Positions 2,624 through 20,121 of a DNA stretch of 20,183 nt are shown here, in pieces (the first letter of the stretch is position 1; the number at the start of each line of letters is the position of its first letter). The notes beneath the pieces were generated by a model. That model was not told where the DNA came from, searched no databases, and saw only the letters and a program-made list of their open reading frames with translations. This DNA comes from a virus, in IMG/VR virus record IMGVR_UViG_3300021197_000852, positions 1 to 20,183 of that record; one strand, given 5' to 3'. Made by a program: the position numbers and the translations under genes.

Positions 2624-3925
2624 CTAGTACAACTGCTGGGTAACTGCTCCAGCTGTACTAATATTACCAGATCTGGCCTGATTGTCAAGGTTTTTTAATA
2701 GATTATCGTTCAGGACCAGATAGTCGACGGTGTAGATATAATCACGGAAGATCAAATTGATGTACTCCGCAGCGTTCTGCATGGGGGTGATGTTCTTATC
2801 AGGCTGAAGGTGATAAACGCGTGCTATCTCTTGCCGAAGCTTGCTGGATAGCTGAACTGGTGAACCCACCTCAGTCGAACGCAGGTCCAAATAGAGATCA
2901 AGCATGTATTTATCTGTCAACACGCCTGCCACGTTAGCAGGGAGGGCTGAGCGATTAAAGGTCTTCACCGTAGTCTTGTCGCACTGTGGCTTTCGCTCTC
3001 TGGTCTGATAGATGGGATTATTGGTGAGAAACAAAGTATAAGAGTTTACCAAATAGTTCTTGAGATTTTGAATATCTGTCAGATAGGTCTTATCATAATA
3101 AGTCTCGAAGAAGTTCTCCTTGGTGATCAACTCAAAATCATTGGTTAGATATGGTTCTAAGTGAACCATCATAGCGTCCGAGAACAAATCAGCAGTCAAG
3201 AGCCAGGGAATGTTCTTATTAACAGTAAATCCAAACTTCTTGGCAGCTTGAATATAAAAATCAAAGTTAGGATCATTAATCCAGTTAGTATACTTATACT
3301 CATCGTCCTCCGGAGGTCCATTATCAATAGCGATCGCCAATCCAGAGTTAAGCACAGAGATAATGTTAGTGAGCAAGTAGTTGGTCTTAGTCACCGGCAC
3401 TGTGGAAGCAACCGTCTTCATGTGTCGAGCAAACGCTGCCACAAAGGTTCGGAAGTCTGTAATCTGGCGCTGCTGCAGCTCGCTTAGAGAATTGGTAAAG
3501 GACAAGTAGAGTTGCTGTAGGTAGCTATCATAGAGGCGACTGGGGTCCTTGTAGGCTCTTGTGGCAGTGGGATTCAGGATCTTAGTATTGCCATTGCTGT
3601 TGAGCGCTCTCGCAACTGTTGCAGACTGCATCTTAATGGCGAAGGAGTCGAAAGCATTAGCCACAAAGTTCAAAGCCAGGAGATTCTGGGATATAGCCTT
3701 TGTGATGGGGGTCAGATTAGCCAGCTGAGGTATGATTGTGTTTTGTGTTCTGTCCACCGCTCCATAATACTGCTTGTCGTACCAAGTGTCAAGAGGAGTA
3801 ATGAGATTGGAAGGATAAATCTCTTCTTTGTACATAAGGCGCTGGAAATACAATGCGTACGAACTCAGCCCGTTGTTGCCGGCCGGATTGAGAAGATCAA
3901 AGGTGGTGTAGTCGAAAGTGGTCAT
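2624..3925 (-). CDS. Unrecognised 433-residue protein, probable baseplate or virion protein
   Basis: I do not recognise this family. The protein begins MTTFDYTTFDLLNPAG, has no signal peptide, no obvious membrane span and no cysteine cluster, and is rich in Asn, Thr, Tyr and Leu, the composition of a structural protein. Helical stretches are broken by Pro-rich turns, for example GPPEDDEYKYTNW near residue 205. Its ATG overlaps the stop of the 1268-residue hub-like gene (ATGA) and GGAGGA lies upstream, so it is translated with the baseplate genes. A GATAAATA sequence about 55 nt before the start could be a late promoter. By position, right after the hub, a baseplate or tail-completion role is the best guess, but this is inference from context only. 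The next gene is the DNA polymerase, so it marks the end of the structural block. Confidence 0.8.
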   Translation of the reverse strand: MTTFDYTTFDLLNPAGNNGLSSYALYFQRLMYKEEIYPSNLITPLDTWYDKQYYGAVDRTQNTIIPQLANLTPITKAISQNLLALNFVANAFDSFAIKMQSATVARALNSNGNTKILNPTATRAYKDPSRLYDSYLQQLYLSFTNSLSELQQRQITDFRTFVAAFARHMKTVASTVPVTKTNYLLTNIISVLNSGLAIAIDNGPPEDDEYKYTNWINDPNFDFYIQAAKKFGFTVNKNIPWLLTADLFSDAMMVHLEPYLTNDFELITKENFFETYYDKTYLTDIQNLKNYLVNSYTLFLTNNPIYQTRERKPQCDKTTVKTFNRSALPANVAGVLTDKYMLDLYLDLRSTEVGSPVQLSSKLRQEIARVYHLQPDKNITPMQNAAEYINLIFRDYIYTVDYLVLNDNLLKNLDNQARSGNISTAGAVTQQLY

Positions 3926-9060: not shown

Positions 9061-10917
9061 CTACGCGTTAGTGAGCGGACCAAACGCGCCGCGGCCAGCC
9101 TCTGAGTTAAGTGCGCCGATCGTTGCTTCCGCAAACTGTGTGCCGCCTACTTCGAGGACGACCTTTTGCTCCGTTCTTCCTGGACGGGATGTCTGCATGT
9201 TCTTGTTAAGTGCATCAATGGAGTCTGCTAGTCGGGCAGACTGCCGAGAAGAGGCACCCTGCTGTCGGGATACCATTCCGCCGATGGAGGATCTTCCTCC
9301 TGCGCGCTGGGTGCTCGGAGTGATGGCGCTTGACTGGCTTTTGGGTGTTCCGGCTGCGGCGATCCCCCCCGCCGCGATGATCCCGCTCAGAGCAAGAAGC
9401 TTGAGCCCTATAGGGACAGTGGCGCCGCCGGTAGGAATGCCCAGCAAAAGCATCGCTAATCCTGCTGCAGGCAGCATCATTTTAAAGGCAGGACCTACGC
9501 TGTTCGTGAAGGTTCCCAGAGCCTGCGCTATGGTACCCATGCCCTTGATGAACGGCTTAATAAAGTTATCAATGAGTGGACGCATATCCACCGCCAAAGC
9601 CATAAACATTGACTTTAGCTCCTGCGCAATGGTTTGAACTTCGCGCGATTGCTCTAGCAGTTCTTCTTGTCGTAGCGCGTCCAGCTGATACTGCTCTTCG
9701 CCCATCCTAAACAGGCGGTTGGCTTCTTCTACGCTCATACCCAGTGAAGAGGCGATCGCTCGCTGCTCATACTTCTGGAGTGCATCGAACTGGATGCCGG
9801 CCATTTCTACCTGTCGTGTGAGGATGGAGATTCTCTCCTCCTCAGAAGCATTGAGCATGTCAATTGAGTTAAGGTAGGGTCCACCCAAAATCGCATTGAG
9901 GCGACCAACGGAGCGAGCTGCTCCGTCAAATGTGTCGAACTGGGCTGTGATCTTGATGAGGTCTCCCACCGAAAGTCCCGTATTCTTAGCTTGTACTGCG
10001 AGTCCCTTAAATACCTCATTAGCTCGGTCCCCATACTGAACCAGTGTACCAAAAGCACTCGTAAAGTCGTTGGCTAGCTGCTTCATAGGCACACCGAGTG
10101 ACTTGGCTGTCCCTGCAATCTCTAGCATTGTGTCATTCGCGTCCTCCACTGAACCGCCAGCAGCCCGGAAGACCTGATCAAAGATGGCGGCCGTGGTGCC
10201 TGCATCGACTCCTAGCTTCTGCAGGAGGACTGTAGTGTCTTTTATTGCGCCGCGCTGTGATGCATTAAGTTGTGTAAAGGCTGAGAAACTCCCATAGAGC
10301 GCTTGGAAGCCTGCGGCTGCGTCTTTAGCGGACACTCCGGCAATGAAGTTGCGTCGCTCTGTCTGCGTGATCTCGTAGTTGTATTGCTTCGAGGCGCCCG
10401 TGGCTTGGCGGAATGAGGAAATAGCTTCGTCCTGTGCCTTGGCGAGTGCGACGGTGGCGTTAAGGAGAGCAGAGCCGGCTTTCTGCAGCGCCAGCGATCC
10501 AAGCTTGGCCGACGAGAGAGTCTTAGTAAAACCCTTCATCTGCTCTGCAGACCTGGGTATTACTTGTGTAAGTTTTCCAGCGAATCCTCCTATTTTGAAC
10601 AGCGAACCAAGCAGTTGTTCGGCCTTCTGTTCGCCTTGTCCCATTTCCTTTTTAAGTTTGTCGAACGCTTCGGTGAGATCGTCGACCGCATCATTCGCTT
10701 CGATAAGATCCTGGAGATGTTGTTGGTTGGTTGGTTGTTGTTTAAGGCGTTCCTGGGCGACGGCGGCGACTGCCTTGGCAAGCGCGATTTCTGACTCCCT
10801 GAGTTTTGCGGTCTCGGTGTCTAGTTGCTCATAGGTATTAAACAGCTGCTGGGCGAGACGCTCCTCGGCCCTGAGTCTTGTTAACCTTTCTTCGGGGGTT
10901 TCTTGATTCGGCGGCAT
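9061..10917 (-). CDS. Tail tape measure protein
   Basis: The 618-residue protein is almost entirely helical. Residues about 8-105 are a charged coiled coil (EERLTRLRAEERLAQQL onward), the middle is Ala-rich amphipathic helix, and two hydrophobic spans lie at about 478-496 and 502-522 with a Gly-Pro turn between. A Ser/Arg/Gln-rich tail follows. This is the layout of tape measure proteins, which fill the tail tube, fix tail length and are ejected into the host envelope at infection. T4 gp29 has a similar length (590 residues). Using the common rule of about 0.15 nm per residue, 618 residues correspond to a tail near 90 nm; that is an estimate. It lies just downstream of the tail tube and frameshifted chaperone genes, the conserved order in long-tailed phages. 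The ATG follows CTAGAGG closely. Confidence 0.88.
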   Translation of the reverse strand: MPPNQETPEERLTRLRAEERLAQQLFNTYEQLDTETAKLRESEIALAKAVAAVAQERLKQQPTNQQHLQDLIEANDAVDDLTEAFDKLKKEMGQGEQKAEQLLGSLFKIGGFAGKLTQVIPRSAEQMKGFTKTLSSAKLGSLALQKAGSALLNATVALAKAQDEAISSFRQATGASKQYNYEITQTERRNFIAGVSAKDAAAGFQALYGSFSAFTQLNASQRGAIKDTTVLLQKLGVDAGTTAAIFDQVFRAAGGSVEDANDTMLEIAGTAKSLGVPMKQLANDFTSAFGTLVQYGDRANEVFKGLAVQAKNTGLSVGDLIKITAQFDTFDGAARSVGRLNAILGGPYLNSIDMLNASEEERISILTRQVEMAGIQFDALQKYEQRAIASSLGMSVEEANRLFRMGEEQYQLDALRQEELLEQSREVQTIAQELKSMFMALAVDMRPLIDNFIKPFIKGMGTIAQALGTFTNSVGPAFKMMLPAAGLAMLLLGIPTGGATVPIGLKLLALSGIIAAGGIAAAGTPKSQSSAITPSTQRAGGRSSIGGMVSRQQGASSRQSARLADSIDALNKNMQTSRPGRTEQKVVLEVGGTQFAEATIGALNSEAGRGAFGPLTNA

Positions 10918-10928
10918 CTATTTAGCCT

Positions 10929-11249
10929 CTAGTTTTTGAAGGGCCACTTAAGACCGGTTTCATATTCAAACTGTTTTACAGCATTGTCGAGCTGATACTT
11001 CGAACTCATCGTCTTGTGGTTGTCGAGTCCGTTGCGCATATAGGAGTCCATATAACGCTTCTCCTTGTTGAGGGCTGTCATAAAGCTATCGATCTGTCCG
11101 GGGCGACCCACCAAATGCATGGGAATGTCAATTCCCGCATCATATAGAGAGATCAGCATTCCGCGGACATCATTCGCAAACTGAGTATATACACGCTCGT
11201 TCAAGGTTTTTCCTTTAGCGTTTAAATAGAGTTTTTTCTTTTCTTCCAT
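10929..11249 (-). CDS. Small protein of unknown function between chaperone and tape measure
   Basis: The 106-residue product starts MEEKKKLYLNAKGKTLNERV and is charged and soluble, with predicted helices and a short C-terminal LKWPFKN. I recognise no family. Codons run cleanly from an ATG preceded by AGAGG to a TAG 11 nt before the tape measure start. Its place, right after the chaperone frameshift extension and right before the tape measure, suggests a tail assembly helper, for instance a partner of the chaperone or tape measure. This is context only. An ACTATTTAA sequence about 21 nt upstream of the start might be a promoter for this gene and the tape measure. Confidence 0.75.
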   Translation of the reverse strand: MEEKKKLYLNAKGKTLNERVYTQFANDVRGMLISLYDAGIDIPMHLVGRPGQIDSFMTALNKEKRYMDSYMRNGLDNHKTMSSKYQLDNAVKQFEYETGLKWPFKN

Positions 11250-11302: not shown

Positions 11303-11485
11303 TTAGCTACGGCGTGCTTTTTCCACTTCTTCATTTTGCTTCTCAAATTCTTGAACCAAACGGTTAACAAACCATCGTCGCAACGCAATAGGGAGGTTAT
11401 AGGACTCAGTAAAAGACCATCCCCCATAGTGCTTAAGGGTAAAGAACTCTTCGTATACAGATTCTTGATAACTAGGAGTTAGGCC
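11303..11485 (-). CDS. Frameshift extension of the tail assembly chaperone (no own start codon)
   Basis: After the run of seven T that ends the chaperone gene, the +1 (equal to -2) frame stays open for 60 codons up to a TAA at 11305-11303. It reads GLTPSYQESVYEEFFTLKHY, then GGWSFTESYNLPIALRRWFV and a charged helix ending EVEKARRS. The aromatic GGWSF-x-E-x-YNLP-x-x-LRRWF block is not random-looking and resembles the short T-domain-type extensions following phage tail chaperones. The frame has a stop (TGA, 11503-11501) six codons before GGC, and no ATG, GTG or TTG until codon 35, in the middle of the block. So it can only be made by ribosomes shifting frame at the T run, giving a fusion of about 337-338 residues. 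In lambda the equivalent product (gpGT) brings tube protein to the tape measure. The match is by pattern and position, not by search. Confidence 0.75.
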   Translation of the reverse strand, partial: GLTPSYQESVYEEFFTLKHYGGWSFTESYNLPIALRRWFVNRLVQEFEKQNEEVEKARRS

Positions 11486-12317
11486 AAAAAAAGTCTGCCG
11501 TCAAAGGCATCACCGCCGTTCCAGCATGCGAACACTCGCCACAAATGAAATCAACGTTCATATCGATATCGGGCTTAACGCTCTCATATACAGTCCGGAG
11601 ATGCTTAGCGTCCTGAATAGGCAGTAGTTCTGCTAGTTTCAGTAACTGCGTCCTGTCGGTTACACCGTTTGCAGAGGCGATGATTGAACTTAACAAGAGA
11701 GTTGCTGTGTTCTCTGGTAGTTTCTTCTTCTTGCGCATTTCTAGTTGCTTAGTGATGGTTCTCTCATCTCGCGATGTCAAGATCTTCATCTCCACAATAA
11801 TCTGAGTTCTCGGTAGGGTTACTTGATAATAGCCATTTTCCGAGAGTTCCACACCACTGTCGTCCGCAGTTGTGTGCGCCAGCTCAGATAGATCATATTC
11901 CTGTGTTGTCTTGGCGGAACAAGCAGGACAGGTAATTCCAACCTCGTAGAACGGACCGAAACCAGTGATACGGGTTGCAACCAAGATTGCATTCTTATCT
12001 CCCACTAGCAGTGAATCAACTGTAATGCTCTTGTCTACTATGACTGACTGAACCAGGCGATCAATCGCCATTCCGTTCTTGAGCAACGTCTCGGAAGTAA
12101 GGATATCCTCTTCCTTGGCGGTCATGTGTCGGATCTCGACAGTCTCTTGTCCGCATAGAGGATGCCCCTCAGGGTAGGAGAGTCCCCGGCTGGGGAGTTC
12201 CACGAACTCTGTGGGGTTTACAAAGGAGAAAAGGTCTCCTGTGGGATTCTGTGTTAAGGGTGTTGGCGCGTCGGGGTGCGGTGCGCCAAGCCGCTCGTTG
12301 TTATTTCGTCTTGACAA
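11472..12317 (-). CDS. Tail assembly chaperone / T4 baseplate gp26-type protein with zinc ribbon
   Basis: The 281-residue zero-frame product carries VELPSRGLSYPEGHPL (39-54), then TVEIRHMTAKEEDILTS (59-75), the hallmark of the T4 baseplate protein family (gp26-type; the LPS-x-G ... KEE-x-x-L pattern). CPAC (130-133) and CGEC (259-262) form a likely four-cysteine zinc ribbon. A helical region with Lys-rich MRKKKKLPENTATLL is near 194-208. The start is TTG at 12317, supported by AAGGTGA a few bases upstream, only 20 nt after the tail tube gene. It sits between tail tube and tape measure, the place of tail-assembly chaperones, and its end carries a slippery T7 run leading to the extension described separately. 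In T4 gp26 helps build the hub. Here a chaperone role for tape measure and tube assembly is inferred from position and frameshift. Zinc binding is not demonstrated. Confidence 0.78.
   Translation of the reverse strand: MSRRNNNERLGAPHPDAPTPLTQNPTGDLFSFVNPTEFVELPSRGLSYPEGHPLCGQETVEIRHMTAKEEDILTSETLLKNGMAIDRLVQSVIVDKSITVDSLLVGDKNAILVATRITGFGPFYEVGITCPACSAKTTQEYDLSELAHTTADDSGVELSENGYYQVTLPRTQIIVEMKILTSRDERTITKQLEMRKKKKLPENTATLLLSSIIASANGVTDRTQLLKLAELLPIQDAKHLRTVYESVKPDIDMNVDFICGECSHAGTAVMPLTADFFWPNS
11486..11492 (-). promoter_or_regulatory. Candidate programmed ribosomal frameshift site (T7 run)
   Basis: On the coding strand the chaperone reads GAC TTT TTT TGG CCT AAC TCC TAG, seven consecutive T. 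Slipping +1 or -2 at this run moves ribosomes into the 60-codon extension (next codon GGC). A -1 slip gives TTG GCC TAA and stops at once. Zero-frame readers end 14 nt later. Such homopolymer slips are known at this gene position in tailed phages (lambda -1, Mu -2). Confidence 0.7.
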
Positions 12318-12336: not shown

Positions 12337-12912
12337 TTAGAGGTCCGTGACAGTAGATACTGCAGGACCGGTGTCGTACTGAGCCCAATCATACCTGAAA
12401 GTCATGGTAATGTTAAGGAGATCATCTGTGTCATAACTAAGATCACCAAATGTTGCATTGGTAATGAATGCATTGTTGAGTTTCCAGGTACCAACTATGC
12501 CGCCCTGTCCGTCAAGCTCCTGAATGATCACATTGCCGAGAGCATCGACTGCACCCTGCTTGTTGGGGGTGGTGGCCGGCTGGAGAGTGGTGTTGAAAAT
12601 GTCTTCCTGAGCTGTGGGGATGAGATATCCGGAATTGATCAGTGCATCATAAAGGATCTGGTTACCGTCTGGGTTGATGGCATTAACGATGTTTGCCTCC
12701 ACCGTGTTCCATTCAACGCTGCCGGGATAGTAGTATGTGTTACCCAAGAACTTGTGGGGGGTTTCGCCAATCGTGAAAGATGGCTTAGTTACAGATTTAG
12801 CAAGATACTGCTCATAGGCAAACGCCTGATCTGCTGATGTAAGGTTTGGCAGAGAAAGCAAAAAGCGATGCGATCTCCGTGGTTCTGATAGTGCGCTTGT
12901 CCAAAATGGCAT
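12337..12912 (-). CDS. 19: Tail tube protein (gp19-like)
   Basis: The 191-residue protein begins with RSHRFLLSLPNL, followed by a YLAKSVTKPSFTIGETPHKF segment and YYYPGSVEWNTVEANIVNAI, and ends with a strand-rich part (NITMTFRYDWAQYD). This is the layout of phage tail tube proteins: a beta-sandwich whose N-terminal arm and long loop (V-T-K-P-S-F) contact the next ring. T4 gp19 has 163 residues. Tube rings stack beneath the sheath and carry DNA into the host. The ATG at 12912 has a good AGGAGA Shine-Dalgarno. It follows the sheath gene after a 62-nt gap that holds a hairpin and an ACTATATAA motif, a plausible promoter so that tube protein can be made in large amounts. High confidence from motif pattern, length and neighbours. 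Confidence 0.92.
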   Translation of the reverse strand: MPFWTSALSEPRRSHRFLLSLPNLTSADQAFAYEQYLAKSVTKPSFTIGETPHKFLGNTYYYPGSVEWNTVEANIVNAINPDGNQILYDALINSGYLIPTAQEDIFNTTLQPATTPNKQGAVDALGNVIIQELDGQGGIVGTWKLNNAFITNATFGDLSYDTDDLLNITMTFRYDWAQYDTGPAVSTVTDL

Positions 12913-12974: not shown

Positions 12975-15932
12975 TTAATCGACGAACGATGCTCCAGTTC
13001 GCGAGATATTGAAATCGATTGCAATGAATTCGATAGCTCGTGTTGGCTTGAGGAAAATCTGTGCATACATGATGTTCCGGTCTACCAATTCTGGTGTGGT
13101 TGTTGTATCGTCGAGCACCACCTTGAAGTCCGACAAACCGAAGTTTGTTTTCACATCCTGCAAGAATGGATTGACCTGTGCTGTGAAGCGCAGCCATGTC
13201 TGTCTGATGTTTGGATCAAAGAGCAAGCCAGATGCAATCTGGGAAATGCGCTTCTTCACGAAGATCATCAGGCGTCGGACGTTAATACGGTCCAGAGCAG
13301 AAGGTGTAACCTGTAGAGTCTTCTGACCGAAGATTACAATACCCTCTGCTGGGAACTTAGCGATTGGGTTAATGTTCGCTGTGTAAAGGTCATCACGATC
13401 CTTGCGGCGCAGCTGGTGGGCTACGTCAACGACTGGGATGCCCGCGGAACCTTCTGTCAGTCCACCGCGGTTGAAGCCGGCGGGTGCGAACCAGACCTGC
13501 GTCTTACGCTGCGAGCTAGACATTGTGCCCAGCGCCGGAACGGATGGTGGCAACCATACAAACGCGCCGTTGATGGTGTCTCGTCCACGAACCCATGGGT
13601 AGTAAGTGCAGCCGTAGGAGGAGTTAAGCCCTCGATCGCGGAGACCGTTTACAGCCTGTGTAATGCTTGACTGTGTGTTGCCGCGGCGCGAAGCTGCGGA
13701 AGCATTGCTCTGCTCACGTGGGATGTAACCCTGTGGCAAGTCGATGATTGCCAGAGCGTCTGCTCGATCCTCGCAGATGTTTACCAAGTTAGTGGTGAGC
13801 CCTTCGTTACGAAGTCCTGGCATCGTTGCCAAGTTCATCTCAACAACCTCAGGATCCGAAATGGCATCCATTGTGCGTCGGATTGAGTTAAAGACGTAGT
13901 TGTTAGTCTCAGAGGCAGTCGTTCCAATATTGTTCGTGCTAGAGTTGAAAGGGTCCATCTCGGTGATATCCACACCATCGAAACCACCGTAAACCGGTAC
14001 CGTGAATCGGTCATAACCCCGGTCGAGAACGCCACTCACAGCGCCGCTCACATAGGTAAGGGAGTTAGAGGAGTGGGATCCACTAACCCAGACACCCTGG
14101 GAGCCAGAAACGTCATCGAGAGTGAACTCTACAGAGCGCTCGGCCTGTCCATTGGCTACACTAAACATAGCACCGACCATGCCGCCGCGGGGGCGGACAA
14201 GATCAATGGTCGATTTGGCAAAGGTTGTGCTGCCTGCACTTTCTGCGGTCTGGAAACCGAAGTATGCATCTGTTGGGTTGCTGAGGCTGCCTGCGGAGGC
14301 GCTAGTACGAAGCTCGGGAGCTGGGTAGAGGATGCGCGCTGCGAAGGAGCCGGGAGCACCCGTGCTGGTGGGTTCCGCAATAGCAACTCCGGATCCAGTA
14401 ATGAAACGAGCTAGAGTATTGATGGTGGCGCCTTTGAGCGTTGAAGGAAGTCCCGCTTGTCCCGGTCCGTTGGAGCCACTAATCCAGTTGCCTGTAACGT
14501 AGTTCGGGCTCGTGGAGCCGGAGCTGTAGTTTTCCTCGTCATTATACTTGACCATTCCCTGGAATCCGAATGGAACCAGTACTGACGGAGTAAGTCCTGC
14601 GTCGACGTCCGAGTTCATGGCGACTCGAATGTAGGAGGAGTTGTTGGCCCAGTCACCTTTCTGCAGATAGCGGCGCTCGGTGGTGTCCCAGTCTAGGTAT
14701 CGATCACCAATCTTGCGGGCAACGTAGTTAACCGAGTCGGGGTTAAGGTCGCACTCGTCAAACTGCTCGATGATACGAACAACGTTATCCGAGTCACCCA
14801 AGGCGCGGACAACAACAGAGAAAGAACCATAACCAGTCTCATTGTTTGTCGAACGCTTGATATCCTGGATGGAAACCTTGATGTTTCGGTTGGTCCAGTC
14901 ACCGGGCTCATTGAGAGCATGAATGGTGAAGAGGTTCTGTGGTGCGTCAGTTGGCGAGAGGCGGCAACTGATAATTGAAGGAGATTGCGCTGACTGCACG
15001 GAGTGTCCTAAGTAATCGGAGCCCTCAACAGAGCCGCTAATGATGGGAAGCAATGCTGCCATCGTTTGTCCGGTATTGGAAGCAGCGATGTCGGCAGATG
15101 TGACATTGGCCAGCATGTGTCGATCGAAGGTCTCACCCAAGAAGTATTTCAGAGGAGTGCCGTCGACAATATCGGAGTTCGTCATCTGAGGGTTTGTGTT
15201 GAGCTTGTTCCGAATGTAGTTGGAATCACTTTCACTGAAGTTAATAGTGGTGCTAAGATCCTCGGTTCCCTTGTAGTTCTTGATCAACAGGCTGTACTGA
15301 TAGTTAGCGCCGGACTCTTGAATCAAACAAACGCTGCCCGTAGTGGAACCGGTTGTTTGAGCTTGGGGGATATGGCCATCGACATCCGAGGACGAACCGG
15401 AAGCAATGAGGGTGCCCGAGAGCATGAACTCGACGTCTGAGGCGCCATACAAAACCGCCGCTAGTGCACCGGTGACAGCTAAAGTCTCGGCCTGCAGGCT
15501 GGCACTCGTATCTGTAAAGATGAACAACCCATAAGCCTGACTGGTGCTCCAGCCAGCTTCTGCGGATGCACCTTGGGCACCACCTGTAGCGCTGCCGTCA
15601 TTGTCGGCGCGCTGGGCACCGTTCAAGCGAATGTAGGTGAGTGGAGAACTGTTGCGGAGGTATGCCTGTGCAGCATACATGCCGTAGGTGGTAGCAGATT
15701 TGTCCGTACCCTCGCGCCATACGTCGTTGCCGGCTTGTCCCGGAGCGGGGGTGCCGAAGACGTTGACGAATTCTTCAAAGGATGTAACTGTAACGGGGCG
15801 AAGTGATGGCCCTTTCTCGGCTCGACCAATAACGACCGGACCGATGCCTGCGGGGGATGCAGGAACTTGGGAGTTGTCGATTTCGTTGACAAAAACCCCG
15901 GGGGATACGAATCTGTACTTTTTAACTGACAT
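12975..15932 (-). CDS. 18: Tail sheath protein, enlarged (gp18-like)
   Basis: The N-terminus reads SPGVFVNEIDNSQVPASPAG (10-29), the signature of contractile tail sheath proteins, followed by VIGRAEKGP and a TSFEEFVNVFGTP segment. The C-terminal ~300 residues include CEDRADALAIIDLP (about 718-731), RDTINGAFVWLPPS and a closing VDRNIMYAQIFLKPTRAIEF, then ISRTG, the conserved subunit-linking arm. The core forms the contractile lattice around the tube, driving it into the host. At 985 residues it is about 330 longer than T4 gp18 (659). The extra length is in the middle, which is rich in Ser, Gly and Thr and probably forms surface domains. Its ATG has AGGAGA with short spacing. A gap of 66 nt upstream holds two ACTATTTA motifs, and a hairpin follows the stop. 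High confidence in the family; the central part is not recognised. Confidence 0.95.
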   Translation of the reverse strand: MSVKKYRFVSPGVFVNEIDNSQVPASPAGIGPVVIGRAEKGPSLRPVTVTSFEEFVNVFGTPAPGQAGNDVWREGTDKSATTYGMYAAQAYLRNSSPLTYIRLNGAQRADNDGSATGGAQGASAEAGWSTSQAYGLFIFTDTSASLQAETLAVTGALAAVLYGASDVEFMLSGTLIASGSSSDVDGHIPQAQTTGSTTGSVCLIQESGANYQYSLLIKNYKGTEDLSTTINFSESDSNYIRNKLNTNPQMTNSDIVDGTPLKYFLGETFDRHMLANVTSADIAASNTGQTMAALLPIISGSVEGSDYLGHSVQSAQSPSIISCRLSPTDAPQNLFTIHALNEPGDWTNRNIKVSIQDIKRSTNNETGYGSFSVVVRALGDSDNVVRIIEQFDECDLNPDSVNYVARKIGDRYLDWDTTERRYLQKGDWANNSSYIRVAMNSDVDAGLTPSVLVPFGFQGMVKYNDEENYSSGSTSPNYVTGNWISGSNGPGQAGLPSTLKGATINTLARFITGSGVAIAEPTSTGAPGSFAARILYPAPELRTSASAGSLSNPTDAYFGFQTAESAGSTTFAKSTIDLVRPRGGMVGAMFSVANGQAERSVEFTLDDVSGSQGVWVSGSHSSNSLTYVSGAVSGVLDRGYDRFTVPVYGGFDGVDITEMDPFNSSTNNIGTTASETNNYVFNSIRRTMDAISDPEVVEMNLATMPGLRNEGLTTNLVNICEDRADALAIIDLPQGYIPREQSNASAASRRGNTQSSITQAVNGLRDRGLNSSYGCTYYPWVRGRDTINGAFVWLPPSVPALGTMSSSQRKTQVWFAPAGFNRGGLTEGSAGIPVVDVAHQLRRKDRDDLYTANINPIAKFPAEGIVIFGQKTLQVTPSALDRINVRRLMIFVKKRISQIASGLLFDPNIRQTWLRFTAQVNPFLQDVKTNFGLSDFKVVLDDTTTTPELVDRNIMYAQIFLKPTRAIEFIAIDFNISRTGASFVD

Positions 15933-18300: not shown

Positions 18301-20085
18301 TTAGCCAGTTACGATACCCTTGCAGATAACGAGACCGTACATGTCTGGACGAACCATCTTCTTGGCATATCGAGTCATCACGCCCTTGCGAGGCACGAAG
18401 TCTTCAACACCGAAGATCGTAGGTGTGGTCTGCAGCGGCACATAAGGTGCATACACATAACCACTCTCAAGGAAGGAACTTCCGCGGCGACCAACGAGGA
18501 TCACATTACGCATGAAGTACGGATCGACAAAGATGTCGAGCTTCTTCGAGAGGGAACCAACCTTCATAGCACCCGCGTCGCCGCGGTCACTATCAGCAGT
18601 CACGTTGGCACGGAAACCAGCAGTGAACTCAAGGATGTTAGCAACTTCTGGTCCGCAGACGATGAAGTTGGCAGCACCACGGAGAGTCTTGCGGTGGATC
18701 TGTGCGGAGACATCATTGATGGACTCAATGAGGGTCTCATACCACTCGGAGACGTTACCGGTGAACTCAGGAGCAGCGTTAGCAGCACCAGTCTCACGGT
18801 CGAGGAAGTCGCCTGGGGAGCGCGACCAGTAACGAATACCGGCACGTGCACCTGCAACGAGGTCCTCAAGGATCTCGCGATCAATCTCAAGAGCAATCTG
18901 CTCCGAAAGGATCTGAGTAAGCTCAACTTCTGCATCCAAGTTGTGGTATGCGTTGAGGTCCTGACCCAATTCTGGAGTCCACTTAGCCTTGAGCTTCTTG
19001 GTGACAGCTGTGACAGCCACGGAGTCAACCTTGATGTTGATCTCTGGGATGGCAGCGCTGTTCTCAAGTCCCCAGTCGGTGGTACCCTCAACAGCACCAA
19101 GAGCCGAAGCGTCCTGGAAGTTGTCGACGATAGCGAACGAGAGGACGGCGGCCTCAATAGAACTCGAAAGCGTGTCTGGGTCCGAACCGTTGGTCGAAAC
19201 AAAAACAGCACGAACAACGTCACGGTTAACCCTATCCAAGTCGCTGAAGGAGCGACTCAGAGCGCTAAGGCGCGGTACGAGAACAGCCGTATCAGCTGTA
19301 ACATTGTCCATGGTCATGGCTGTGAGGTCGTCCTGGTTAAACTGCGTGGAGGCAGAGAGACCAAGCTCAGCAATAACGAACGAAGAACCGGATGTGAGAT
19401 CAGGGTCAAAACGCAGGATTGTGTTAGCGTCAGTCCGTGTCATATCGCTCAGTCCGGGATCCTTGAGACCATTCGCTGGCGAGAACAAGGAAGCAGCAGC
19501 CTGACCGCCGGCCCCAAGGGTACCGGAGCAAACGATCGTGAGACCGCTGCCAGCGAGACCAGACGAAGGATTCAGCGAACCTGTTGGCGAAGAGTAACCG
19601 TTACGCAAGTTGTATGGACCGTTTGCAACTGTACCATCTTCACCTGCGAGGTCAACACCACCGGTGATCTGCGAACCAACAACATTACCACCATAAAGCG
19701 ATGTGTTCTGGTCAAATCCAAGACGATTACTGGAAGCGGGCGTACCCTCAAACATGAAGTCCAGGAAGAAGATGAGGCCGGAAGGCAAGCTCATCGGCTG
19801 AACGGAAACGAGTTCGTTTGCGATCAGGTTGCCGAATACTCGGCGTACAAGTGGGAATGCAACTGCTGCAAAACCCTGAACGTCGCCACCCTGCATGGTG
19901 CTGGCGCTCTCTCGGAGCAGCTCTTTTGCTTGGTTCTCAAGCAAACGTGCCATTCCATTCCGAACCACATCGTCACCCAGACCCTCAAGAAGACCTGTCT
20001 GTTCCCACTTATTAATGAGAGCAGCACCTTCTGTAGAGAGATCACGGTTAACGATACCTTCGGTCAATTTCTCGACGATAGACAT
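18301..20085 (-). CDS. 23: Major capsid protein (gp23-like)
   Basis: The 594-residue protein has the T4 gp23 plan. A helical N-terminal part (1-60) is followed by GFAAVAFPLVRRVFGNLIAN (71-90) and LVSVQPMSLPSGLIFFLDFM, which match gp23 VRRAIPNLI ... VQPMNSPTGQVF. The C-terminal third includes AKWTPELGQDLNAYHNLDAE, EQIALEIDREILEDLV and NFIVCGPEVANIL, also standard for this family. In T4 the N-terminus is removed by the prohead protease after an L/I-x-E site; here LRE (57-59) is a candidate. The region 120-270 is rich in Ser/Gly/Asn and longer than in T4 (521 residues total), so a surface insertion is likely. AGGAGGT is a very strong ribosome site, and a late-promoter-like AATAAATA lies about 38 nt upstream. 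A terminator follows. Very high confidence. Confidence 0.97.
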   Translation of the reverse strand: MSIVEKLTEGIVNRDLSTEGAALINKWEQTGLLEGLGDDVVRNGMARLLENQAKELLRESASTMQGGDVQGFAAVAFPLVRRVFGNLIANELVSVQPMSLPSGLIFFLDFMFEGTPASSNRLGFDQNTSLYGGNVVGSQITGGVDLAGEDGTVANGPYNLRNGYSSPTGSLNPSSGLAGSGLTIVCSGTLGAGGQAAASLFSPANGLKDPGLSDMTRTDANTILRFDPDLTSGSSFVIAELGLSASTQFNQDDLTAMTMDNVTADTAVLVPRLSALSRSFSDLDRVNRDVVRAVFVSTNGSDPDTLSSSIEAAVLSFAIVDNFQDASALGAVEGTTDWGLENSAAIPEINIKVDSVAVTAVTKKLKAKWTPELGQDLNAYHNLDAEVELTQILSEQIALEIDREILEDLVAGARAGIRYWSRSPGDFLDRETGAANAAPEFTGNVSEWYETLIESINDVSAQIHRKTLRGAANFIVCGPEVANILEFTAGFRANVTADSDRGDAGAMKVGSLSKKLDIFVDPYFMRNVILVGRRGSSFLESGYVYAPYVPLQTTPTIFGVEDFVPRKGVMTRYAKKMVRPDMYGLVICKGIVTG

Positions 20086-20121
20086 ATTAAAACCTCCTAA
20101 TATTGTTATTAATGAATGTCA

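Follow-up and report, generated by a model that had tools for sequence, protein, structure and literature searches.

The window analysed here is a stretch of 20,183 nucleotides of DNA from a marine phage with a contractile tail (IMG/VR record IMGVR_UViG_3300021197_000852, positions 1 to 20,183). It carries a group of tail genes on the minus strand, in which the features below surround a run of seven T's near the 3' end of a gp26-type gene.

12337..12912, minus strand: tail tube gene (gp19-type), the upstream neighbour (phrog_4542, E 2.5e-20)
11472..12317, minus strand: short form of the tail assembly chaperone (gp26-type, T4_baseplate PF12322), 281 aa, TTG start
11306..12317, minus strand: predicted long form, chaperone domain plus C-terminal block, a 337-residue +1 fusion with one four-base step
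11508..11519, minus strand: region of a Shine-Dalgarno-like element and in-frame ATG (11510-11508), 21-30 nt 5' of the P-site codon
11303..11500, minus strand: open +1 frame, of which 11485-11306 is the coding part after the slip (60 codons), with TAA at 11305-11303
11486..11492, minus strand: T7 slip site TTT TTT T(GG), with the proposed P-site codon at 11489-11487 (UUU_U)
11481..11486, minus strand: A-site codon TGG plus CCT, dual coding (W-P in frame 0, G-L in +1)
10929..11249, minus strand: conserved ORF of 106 aa that separates the chaperone gene from the tape measure gene, 51-64% identity in six clade loci
9061..10917, minus strand: probable tape measure protein, 618 aa, judged by position and composition; six loci have a homologue in this position

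A first-pass annotation made from the letters alone had placed the gp26-type gene exactly between the tail tube and tape measure genes. The order holds, but the 106-aa ORF intervenes before the tape measure gene. Family searches gave no named family for this ORF, and no match in Pfam or PHROG for the probable tape measure protein. Elsewhere in the window, the tail sheath protein (12975-15932) is very large (985 aa), and its main sheath match is confined to the last 360 residues. A 395-aa ORF adjoining the tail genes (1428-2615) resembles phage DNA polymerase over residues 178-358 (phrog_17, E 1.8e-16), and an open frame of 468 codons (18694-20100, plus strand) lies antisense to the major head protein gene.

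The 0-frame gene starts with TTG at 12317, and its 3' end reads GAC TTT TTT TGG CCT AAC TCC TAG, with the stop codon at 11474-11472. When the sequence was read again, both the gene end and the run of seven T's (11492-11486, minus strand) were as first described. The same is true of the open +1/-2 frame of 60 codons, which is closed on its 5' side by TGA (11503-11501) and stays open from 11500 to the TAA at 11305-11303. Translation in +1 across the run gives RQTFF followed by the 60 residues GLTPSYQESVYEEFFTLKHYGGWSFTESYNLPIALRRWFVNRLVQEFEKQNEEVEKARRS. The claim that this block has no start before codon 35 also agreed with the sequence, the first possible start being a TTG at that codon (read in locus L002, whose block sequence is identical). 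A -1 slip would soon end, as had been stated, since that frame meets TAA within a few codons. No further occurrence of TTTTTTTGGCC was found in 627 kb of homologous loci.

When the 0-frame protein was compared with Pfam, it matched PF12322 with 45 bits (gathering cut-off 24.5); it also matched phrog_150 (baseplate hub) with an E-value of 5.6e-16. T4 gp26 and gp51 both match PF12322, gp51 only over the first 201 of its 249 residues. The two halves of the 337-residue fusion were modelled separately using AlphaFold2. The model of the 0-frame protein (pLDDT 84) matched BFVD entries for gp26-type phage proteins, which are predicted structures, with E-values down to 1e-20. Among the PDB chains that were realigned with VIA-align, the best match was the HK97 tail assembly chaperone 2ob9 (a modest Z of 5.8; rmsd 3.2 over 81 residues), followed by YqbN 3klu (a modest Z of 5.3; rmsd 3.3 over 82 residues), which we take to be a tail-chaperone-type protein. 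With Foldseek alone the tail chaperone fold of this model was not significant, and a sequence search of the PDB gave no chaperone match.

The model of the C-terminal block (pLDDT 82) consists of three helices with an aromatic block, and a fold search with it gave no significant match. Profile comparison joined the block of the window clade to that of the Microcystis phage Mel-JY01 clade (99.4%), on to the -1 blocks of cyanophages (94.8%; E 5e-8), and the cyanophage blocks in turn to the C-terminus of T4 gp51 (98.1%; E 1e-13). The link to gp51 runs via intermediates; set directly against gp51 C-termini, the block of the window clade gave no significant match (0.2%). By this profile chain, the predicted long form carries a gp51-type C-terminal domain. 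Membership of the block in DUF6760 (PF20546) was considered and rejected as an assignment, being only a lead at 15.6 bits against a cut-off of 27 (E 0.017). In 198 genomes of one bacterial class, neither DUF6760 nor the controls searched alongside it gave a hit. The PF12322 N-domain, the chaperone matches in the PDB and the link of the C-terminal block to gp51 together indicate that the locus encodes a tail assembly chaperone pair.

Homologous loci were collected in three scans of viral contigs. The first, with the 0-frame protein, found 580 relatives, and the 80 best of them were taken for comparison; about 100 more loci came from two further scans, one starting from phage Mel-JY01 and the other from a large uncultured phage. 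Among the nearest 80 IMG/VR loci, GGCCT follows the run in all 80, the run is T7 in 79 (one has TTCTTTT), and the block stands in the same relative frame (+1) wherever the length suffices. These loci hold 52 distinct versions of the block in +1, two of them cut by the end of the locus.

Over the whole set of 188 loci, which come from several lineages (185 readable and three truncated), 176 of the 185 retain the motif [T/C]TT T(GG/AC) CCT, and the block is in +1 in all 173 motif-bearing loci that are long enough to tell, counts that are taken over loci which are not phylogenetically independent. The forms are TTT TTT TGG CCT (155 loci), TTC TTT TGG CCT (15), CTT TTT TGG CCT (3), TTT TTT TAC CCT (2) and TTT CTT TGG CCT (1), with nine others. 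Two cultured phages, Mel-JY01 and Flavobacterium phage immuto, are in the motif-bearing set. An alignment of homologous loci had been suggested as a check on the frameshift, and in it the T run and the downstream block keep the same relative frame. The joint conservation of slip motif and block is far beyond chance. A close relative (63% identity) with the same slip site was also found on a 4.6-kb contig of a Flavobacteriales metagenome-assembled genome, probably a phage sequence binned with its host.

It could be argued that the T run contains a sequencing or assembly error and that both parts form one plain frame, as homopolymers are error-prone. A different T count had been named in advance as an observation against the frameshift. 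What was found instead is that the two parts stand in an unchanged frame relation across independent metagenomes, cultured phages and forms lacking the T7. Because TTC TTT TGG breaks the homopolymer, and because the signal recurs in the cultured Mel-JY01 and immuto, an error is already refuted and its probability is practically negligible.

Selection on the slip codons was analysed in non-redundant sets of 48 genes from clade A (the window clade) and 62 genes from clade B (the Mel-JY01 clade), using the conserved degenerate columns (81 and 71, respectively). Among all of these columns, only the three for F, F and P of TTT TTT TGG CCT have a synonymous entropy below 25% of expectation. The second Phe codon, which would occupy the P site, is TTT in 110 of 110 non-redundant loci, compared with an overall TTT usage of 77-79%; this choice is what a putative slip site needs. 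CCT is likewise present in 110 of 110, despite four-fold degeneracy in frame 0, and its fixation is explained by dual coding, as its T is the second base of the +1 Leu codon. In clade A the codons ACG and GCA, located two and three positions ahead of the first Phe (window 11496-11501), are near-fixed as well (42/48 each), where synonymous choice is free.

The block has a median dN/dS of 0.081 in clade A and 0.265 in clade B, compared with at least 1.1 when it is read in the other frames. Stop codons interrupt it in none of 107 loci in +1, as against 87 and 106 of 107 in the other two frames. By these measures the block evolves as a protein. The proposal of a programmed frameshift, made in the first-pass annotation, is thus strongly supported by the conserved motif, the conserved frame, the frozen slip codons and the selection on the block.

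The direction had been left as +1/-2, and it can now be narrowed to +1. Both shifts reach the same frame, a -2 slip is reported for the tail chaperones of phage Mu, and the seven-base homopolymer, on which transcript slippage could also occur, is dominant (155 of 176 loci). However, the variant sites do not suit these mechanisms. TTC TTT TGG (15 loci) has only four T's left; there tRNA-Phe could re-pair from UUU to UUU at +1, whereas -2 pairing in the P site falls on UCU. In the case of TTT CTT TGG (immuto), re-pairing from CUU to UUU is possible at +1, whereas a -2 slip puts tRNA-Leu on UUC. Since both variants keep the frame of the block yet disfavour stepping two bases back, +1 is much the better reading, and since they break the homopolymer they also argue against transcript slippage. 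It is highly unlikely that the same fusion arises from a -2 ribosomal slip or from transcript slippage on the T7.

A different possibility is that the block is a separate small gene, translated from an internal start or by termination-reinitiation and never fused. A second block with its own start in homologues had been named as the case that would speak against a frameshift, and such loci do occur: the block stands as a separate ATG gene in three of them (L191, L196 and LR756511, or L090), although two of the three are nested inside the +1 group. In L191 the slip site is gone (TTC TTG TAT), and in L196 the block lies in the -1 frame behind its own ATG. Public records also annotate the block as a CDS of its own: in Mel-JY01 it is given a TTG start that lies within gp26, and in immuto and SP-15 an ATG start within the block itself. 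But no ATG precedes codon 25 in the +1 frame in 120 of the 173 complete blocks, and frozen slip codons would be without reason in a separate gene. For the motif-bearing loci, we consider this explanation extremely improbable.

In the reading that we prefer, the locus very probably uses programmed +1 ribosomal frameshifting to make a tail assembly chaperone pair of the T4 type (gp26/gp51 family). Reading TTT TTT TGG CCT in frame 0, most ribosomes would go on to the nearby stop and give the short form of 281 aa. Where the second TTT holds peptidyl-tRNA-Phe in the P site and TGG fills the A site, a minority of the tRNAs would move their pairing forward by one base, from UUU to UUU. GGC would then be read next, and the C-terminal block of 60 residues would be added. 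Judging by lambda gpG/gpGT, the short form would serve to coat the tape measure protein, and the long one to bring in subunits of the tail tube. Two familiar types of stimulator were considered and rejected. Conserved RNA structure 3' of the site (a hairpin or pseudoknot) gave no signal in general, not pseudoknot-specific, folding z-scores (means of 0.18 and -0.67 in the two clades and +1.4 for the window), and a close Shine-Dalgarno element of the prfB kind (3-nt spacing) is not indicated, as anti-Shine-Dalgarno energies directly upstream were only weak.

Farther upstream, a Shine-Dalgarno-like element was observed when pairing with the anti-Shine-Dalgarno sequence was compared with shuffles that keep both protein and codon usage. 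In the +1 clades, the strongest selected site of the gene is (A/G)AGGTG at -30 in clade A and AAGGAG at -33 in clade B, with z-scores of -13 to -16. Calibrated over all columns, this site has the lowest mean energy in both clades; its z-score is among the most extreme in clade A and the most extreme of all in clade B (spread of z across the columns of clade B, 2.5). Elements resembling GGAGGT, in single sequences read by eye, stand in the same register in L181-L190, L084, L170 and immuto (L083). In several +1 lineages, pairing with the first A of the anti-Shine-Dalgarno core ACCUCC lies in one register, at -26. No such element was found in several other +1 loci (L147, L162, SP-15 and GXN1), and that of the window is only weak (ACGGCGGTG ATG).

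The direct effects known to act on a ribosome positioned at the slip do not reach over about 25 nt, and we know of no frameshift signal that works at such a distance. Tentatively, and with considerable doubt, the element may be a long-range part of the +1 signal. It might dock a 30S subunit, or a ribosome in the course of initiation, in the wake of the paused one, or else launch a second, short product that undergoes the shift at this slip site as well. Such a product would begin from the in-frame ATG 21 nt upstream of the slip and, besides the fusion, yield a free C-terminal block of about 67 residues. The position of the gene's strongest synonymously selected anti-Shine-Dalgarno site just 5' of the slip in both large clades, together with the ATG at -21 in 45 of 48 clade-A genes, speaks for such a product. 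Clade B, however, has no consistent start codon there, the element of the window (ACGGCGGTG) is weak, and we are aware of no precedent; on balance this product is unlikely.

The homologous pair takes several other forms. In P-SSM2, S-PM2, HTVC008M and KVP40, the homologous block lies in -1 behind NNT TTT TT(C/T). This slip site is shared by 80 cyanophage-type loci, of which the 78 that are long enough have the block in -1, and the genes of this type (L176, L177 and L202-L281) show selection for GGAGGG some 10 nt ahead of the slip, an arrangement similar to that of dnaX, with a z-score of about -11. In the jumbo phages RAS14 and XacN1, T TTT TTT precedes a block in -1; a search of viral contigs for relatives of the XacN1 form found none. 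T4 has two genes for the pair, one for the short and one for the long form. Further +1 forms were found in phages of Bacillus, Listeria and Streptococcus (SP-15, LIS04 and GXN1), where the slip sites are not precisely located; in Streptococcus phage GXN1 (L085, around 3200-3229), a candidate TTC TTT CGT stands at the corresponding place.

In a tree of the N-domain, the cyanophage, KVP40 and T4 forms fall on one side, and the +1, RAS14/XacN1 and separate-gene forms on the other. L191 and L196 are sisters of the CUU_U phage immuto, and the slip codons of L191 have decayed. The number of direction changes is an impression and not a count, because the deep branches are long and some supports are low (39-91).

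If the +1 reading is true, one homologous pair is made in four ways, by +1 shift, by -1 shift, by gene duplication (T4) and as separate genes, and the family would be a natural experiment on the swap of recoding direction with product and gene place unchanged. In UUU_UGG there would be a compact bacterial +1 site of wide occurrence whose A site holds a sense codon, and on which +1 shifting could be studied without a stop codon or 3' structure. It would also explain an annotation error in public records (L082, L083 and L087), in which the C-terminal domain has a false start (the TTG in Mel-JY01) or is truncated at an internal ATG (immuto and SP-15).

Phage lambda makes its gpG/gpGT pair by a -1 slip at GGGAAAG. 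The likeness to the window lies in the place between tube and tape measure genes and in a short and an extended product (both predicted here); the differences are the -1 direction in lambda and that no sequence similarity was seen. A lambda-type X XXY YYZ heptamer with a -1 slip does not describe the window, where the block is in +1, the -1 frame runs into TAA and the variants exclude the heptamer. Lambda gpG/gpGT and related tail chaperones were described by Xu, Hendrix and Duda (2004) and reviewed in PMC5009743.

The first-pass annotation also held that the gp26-type protein is the equivalent of lambda G. This is right, as the comparison holds in gene order, in the predicted two-part architecture and, at modest structural scores, in fold, but it is not new: as cited in PMC10885494 and PMC12846349, the tail chaperones of T4-like phages were identified by Vladimirov, Gautam and Davidson (2022, Virology 566:9-15). 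That their pair is gp26/gp51 is our own reading of the citing statements, together with PF12322 and the T4 two-gene comparison. PMC10885494 describes some T4-like phages as having a short gene plus a longer fused gene, and PMC12846349 speaks of poly-T -1 signals as known from the chaperone genes of T4-like phages. The literature, in which the 2022 paper is represented by its title and by papers citing it, yielded no account of +1 shifting for the gp26 family. Within that coverage and as far as checked, what is new is the conserved +1 shifting proposed here, mapped against the -1 (cyanophages, KVP40 and two jumbo phages), duplicated (T4) and split forms, and the upstream Shine-Dalgarno-like element.

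T4 gp26/gp51 resembles the window in the PF12322 family and in a short form plus a long form with a small C-terminal domain, but T4 uses two genes and the window one gene with a +1 shift. The T4-like -1 chaperones of P-SSM2, S-PM2, HTVC008M and KVP40 (NNT TTT TTC) share the N-domain family, a homologous C-terminal block and a T-rich slip site at the same place. They differ in direction, and their dnaX-like Shine-Dalgarno element stands about 10 nt upstream, in contrast to about 25 nt in the +1 lineages.

A +1 shift in a tail chaperone has also been proposed for the haloarchaeal myoviruses HSTV-2 and the HF1 group, with TTT_CGC in the HF1 group (PMC5009743 and PMC7230728), and a UUU_CGN +1 motif is cited for haloviruses and eukaryotic viruses (PMC7230728). 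These myoviruses share with the window the +1 direction, the P-site UUU (HF1 group) and a tail chaperone pair; their A-site codon is CGC and not UGG, their hosts are archaeal, the genomes are few, and the shift there is likewise only proposed. The candidate TTC TTT CGT of GXN1 resembles this halovirus motif. With prfB, the window family shares a (C/U)UU_U slip in the P site, UUU_U or CUU_U being present in 176 loci and CUU_U in immuto. In prfB a stop codon occupies the A site and a Shine-Dalgarno element stands 3 nt upstream, whereas the family described here has a sense codon, TGG or TAC, in the A site and no Shine-Dalgarno element at 3 nt.
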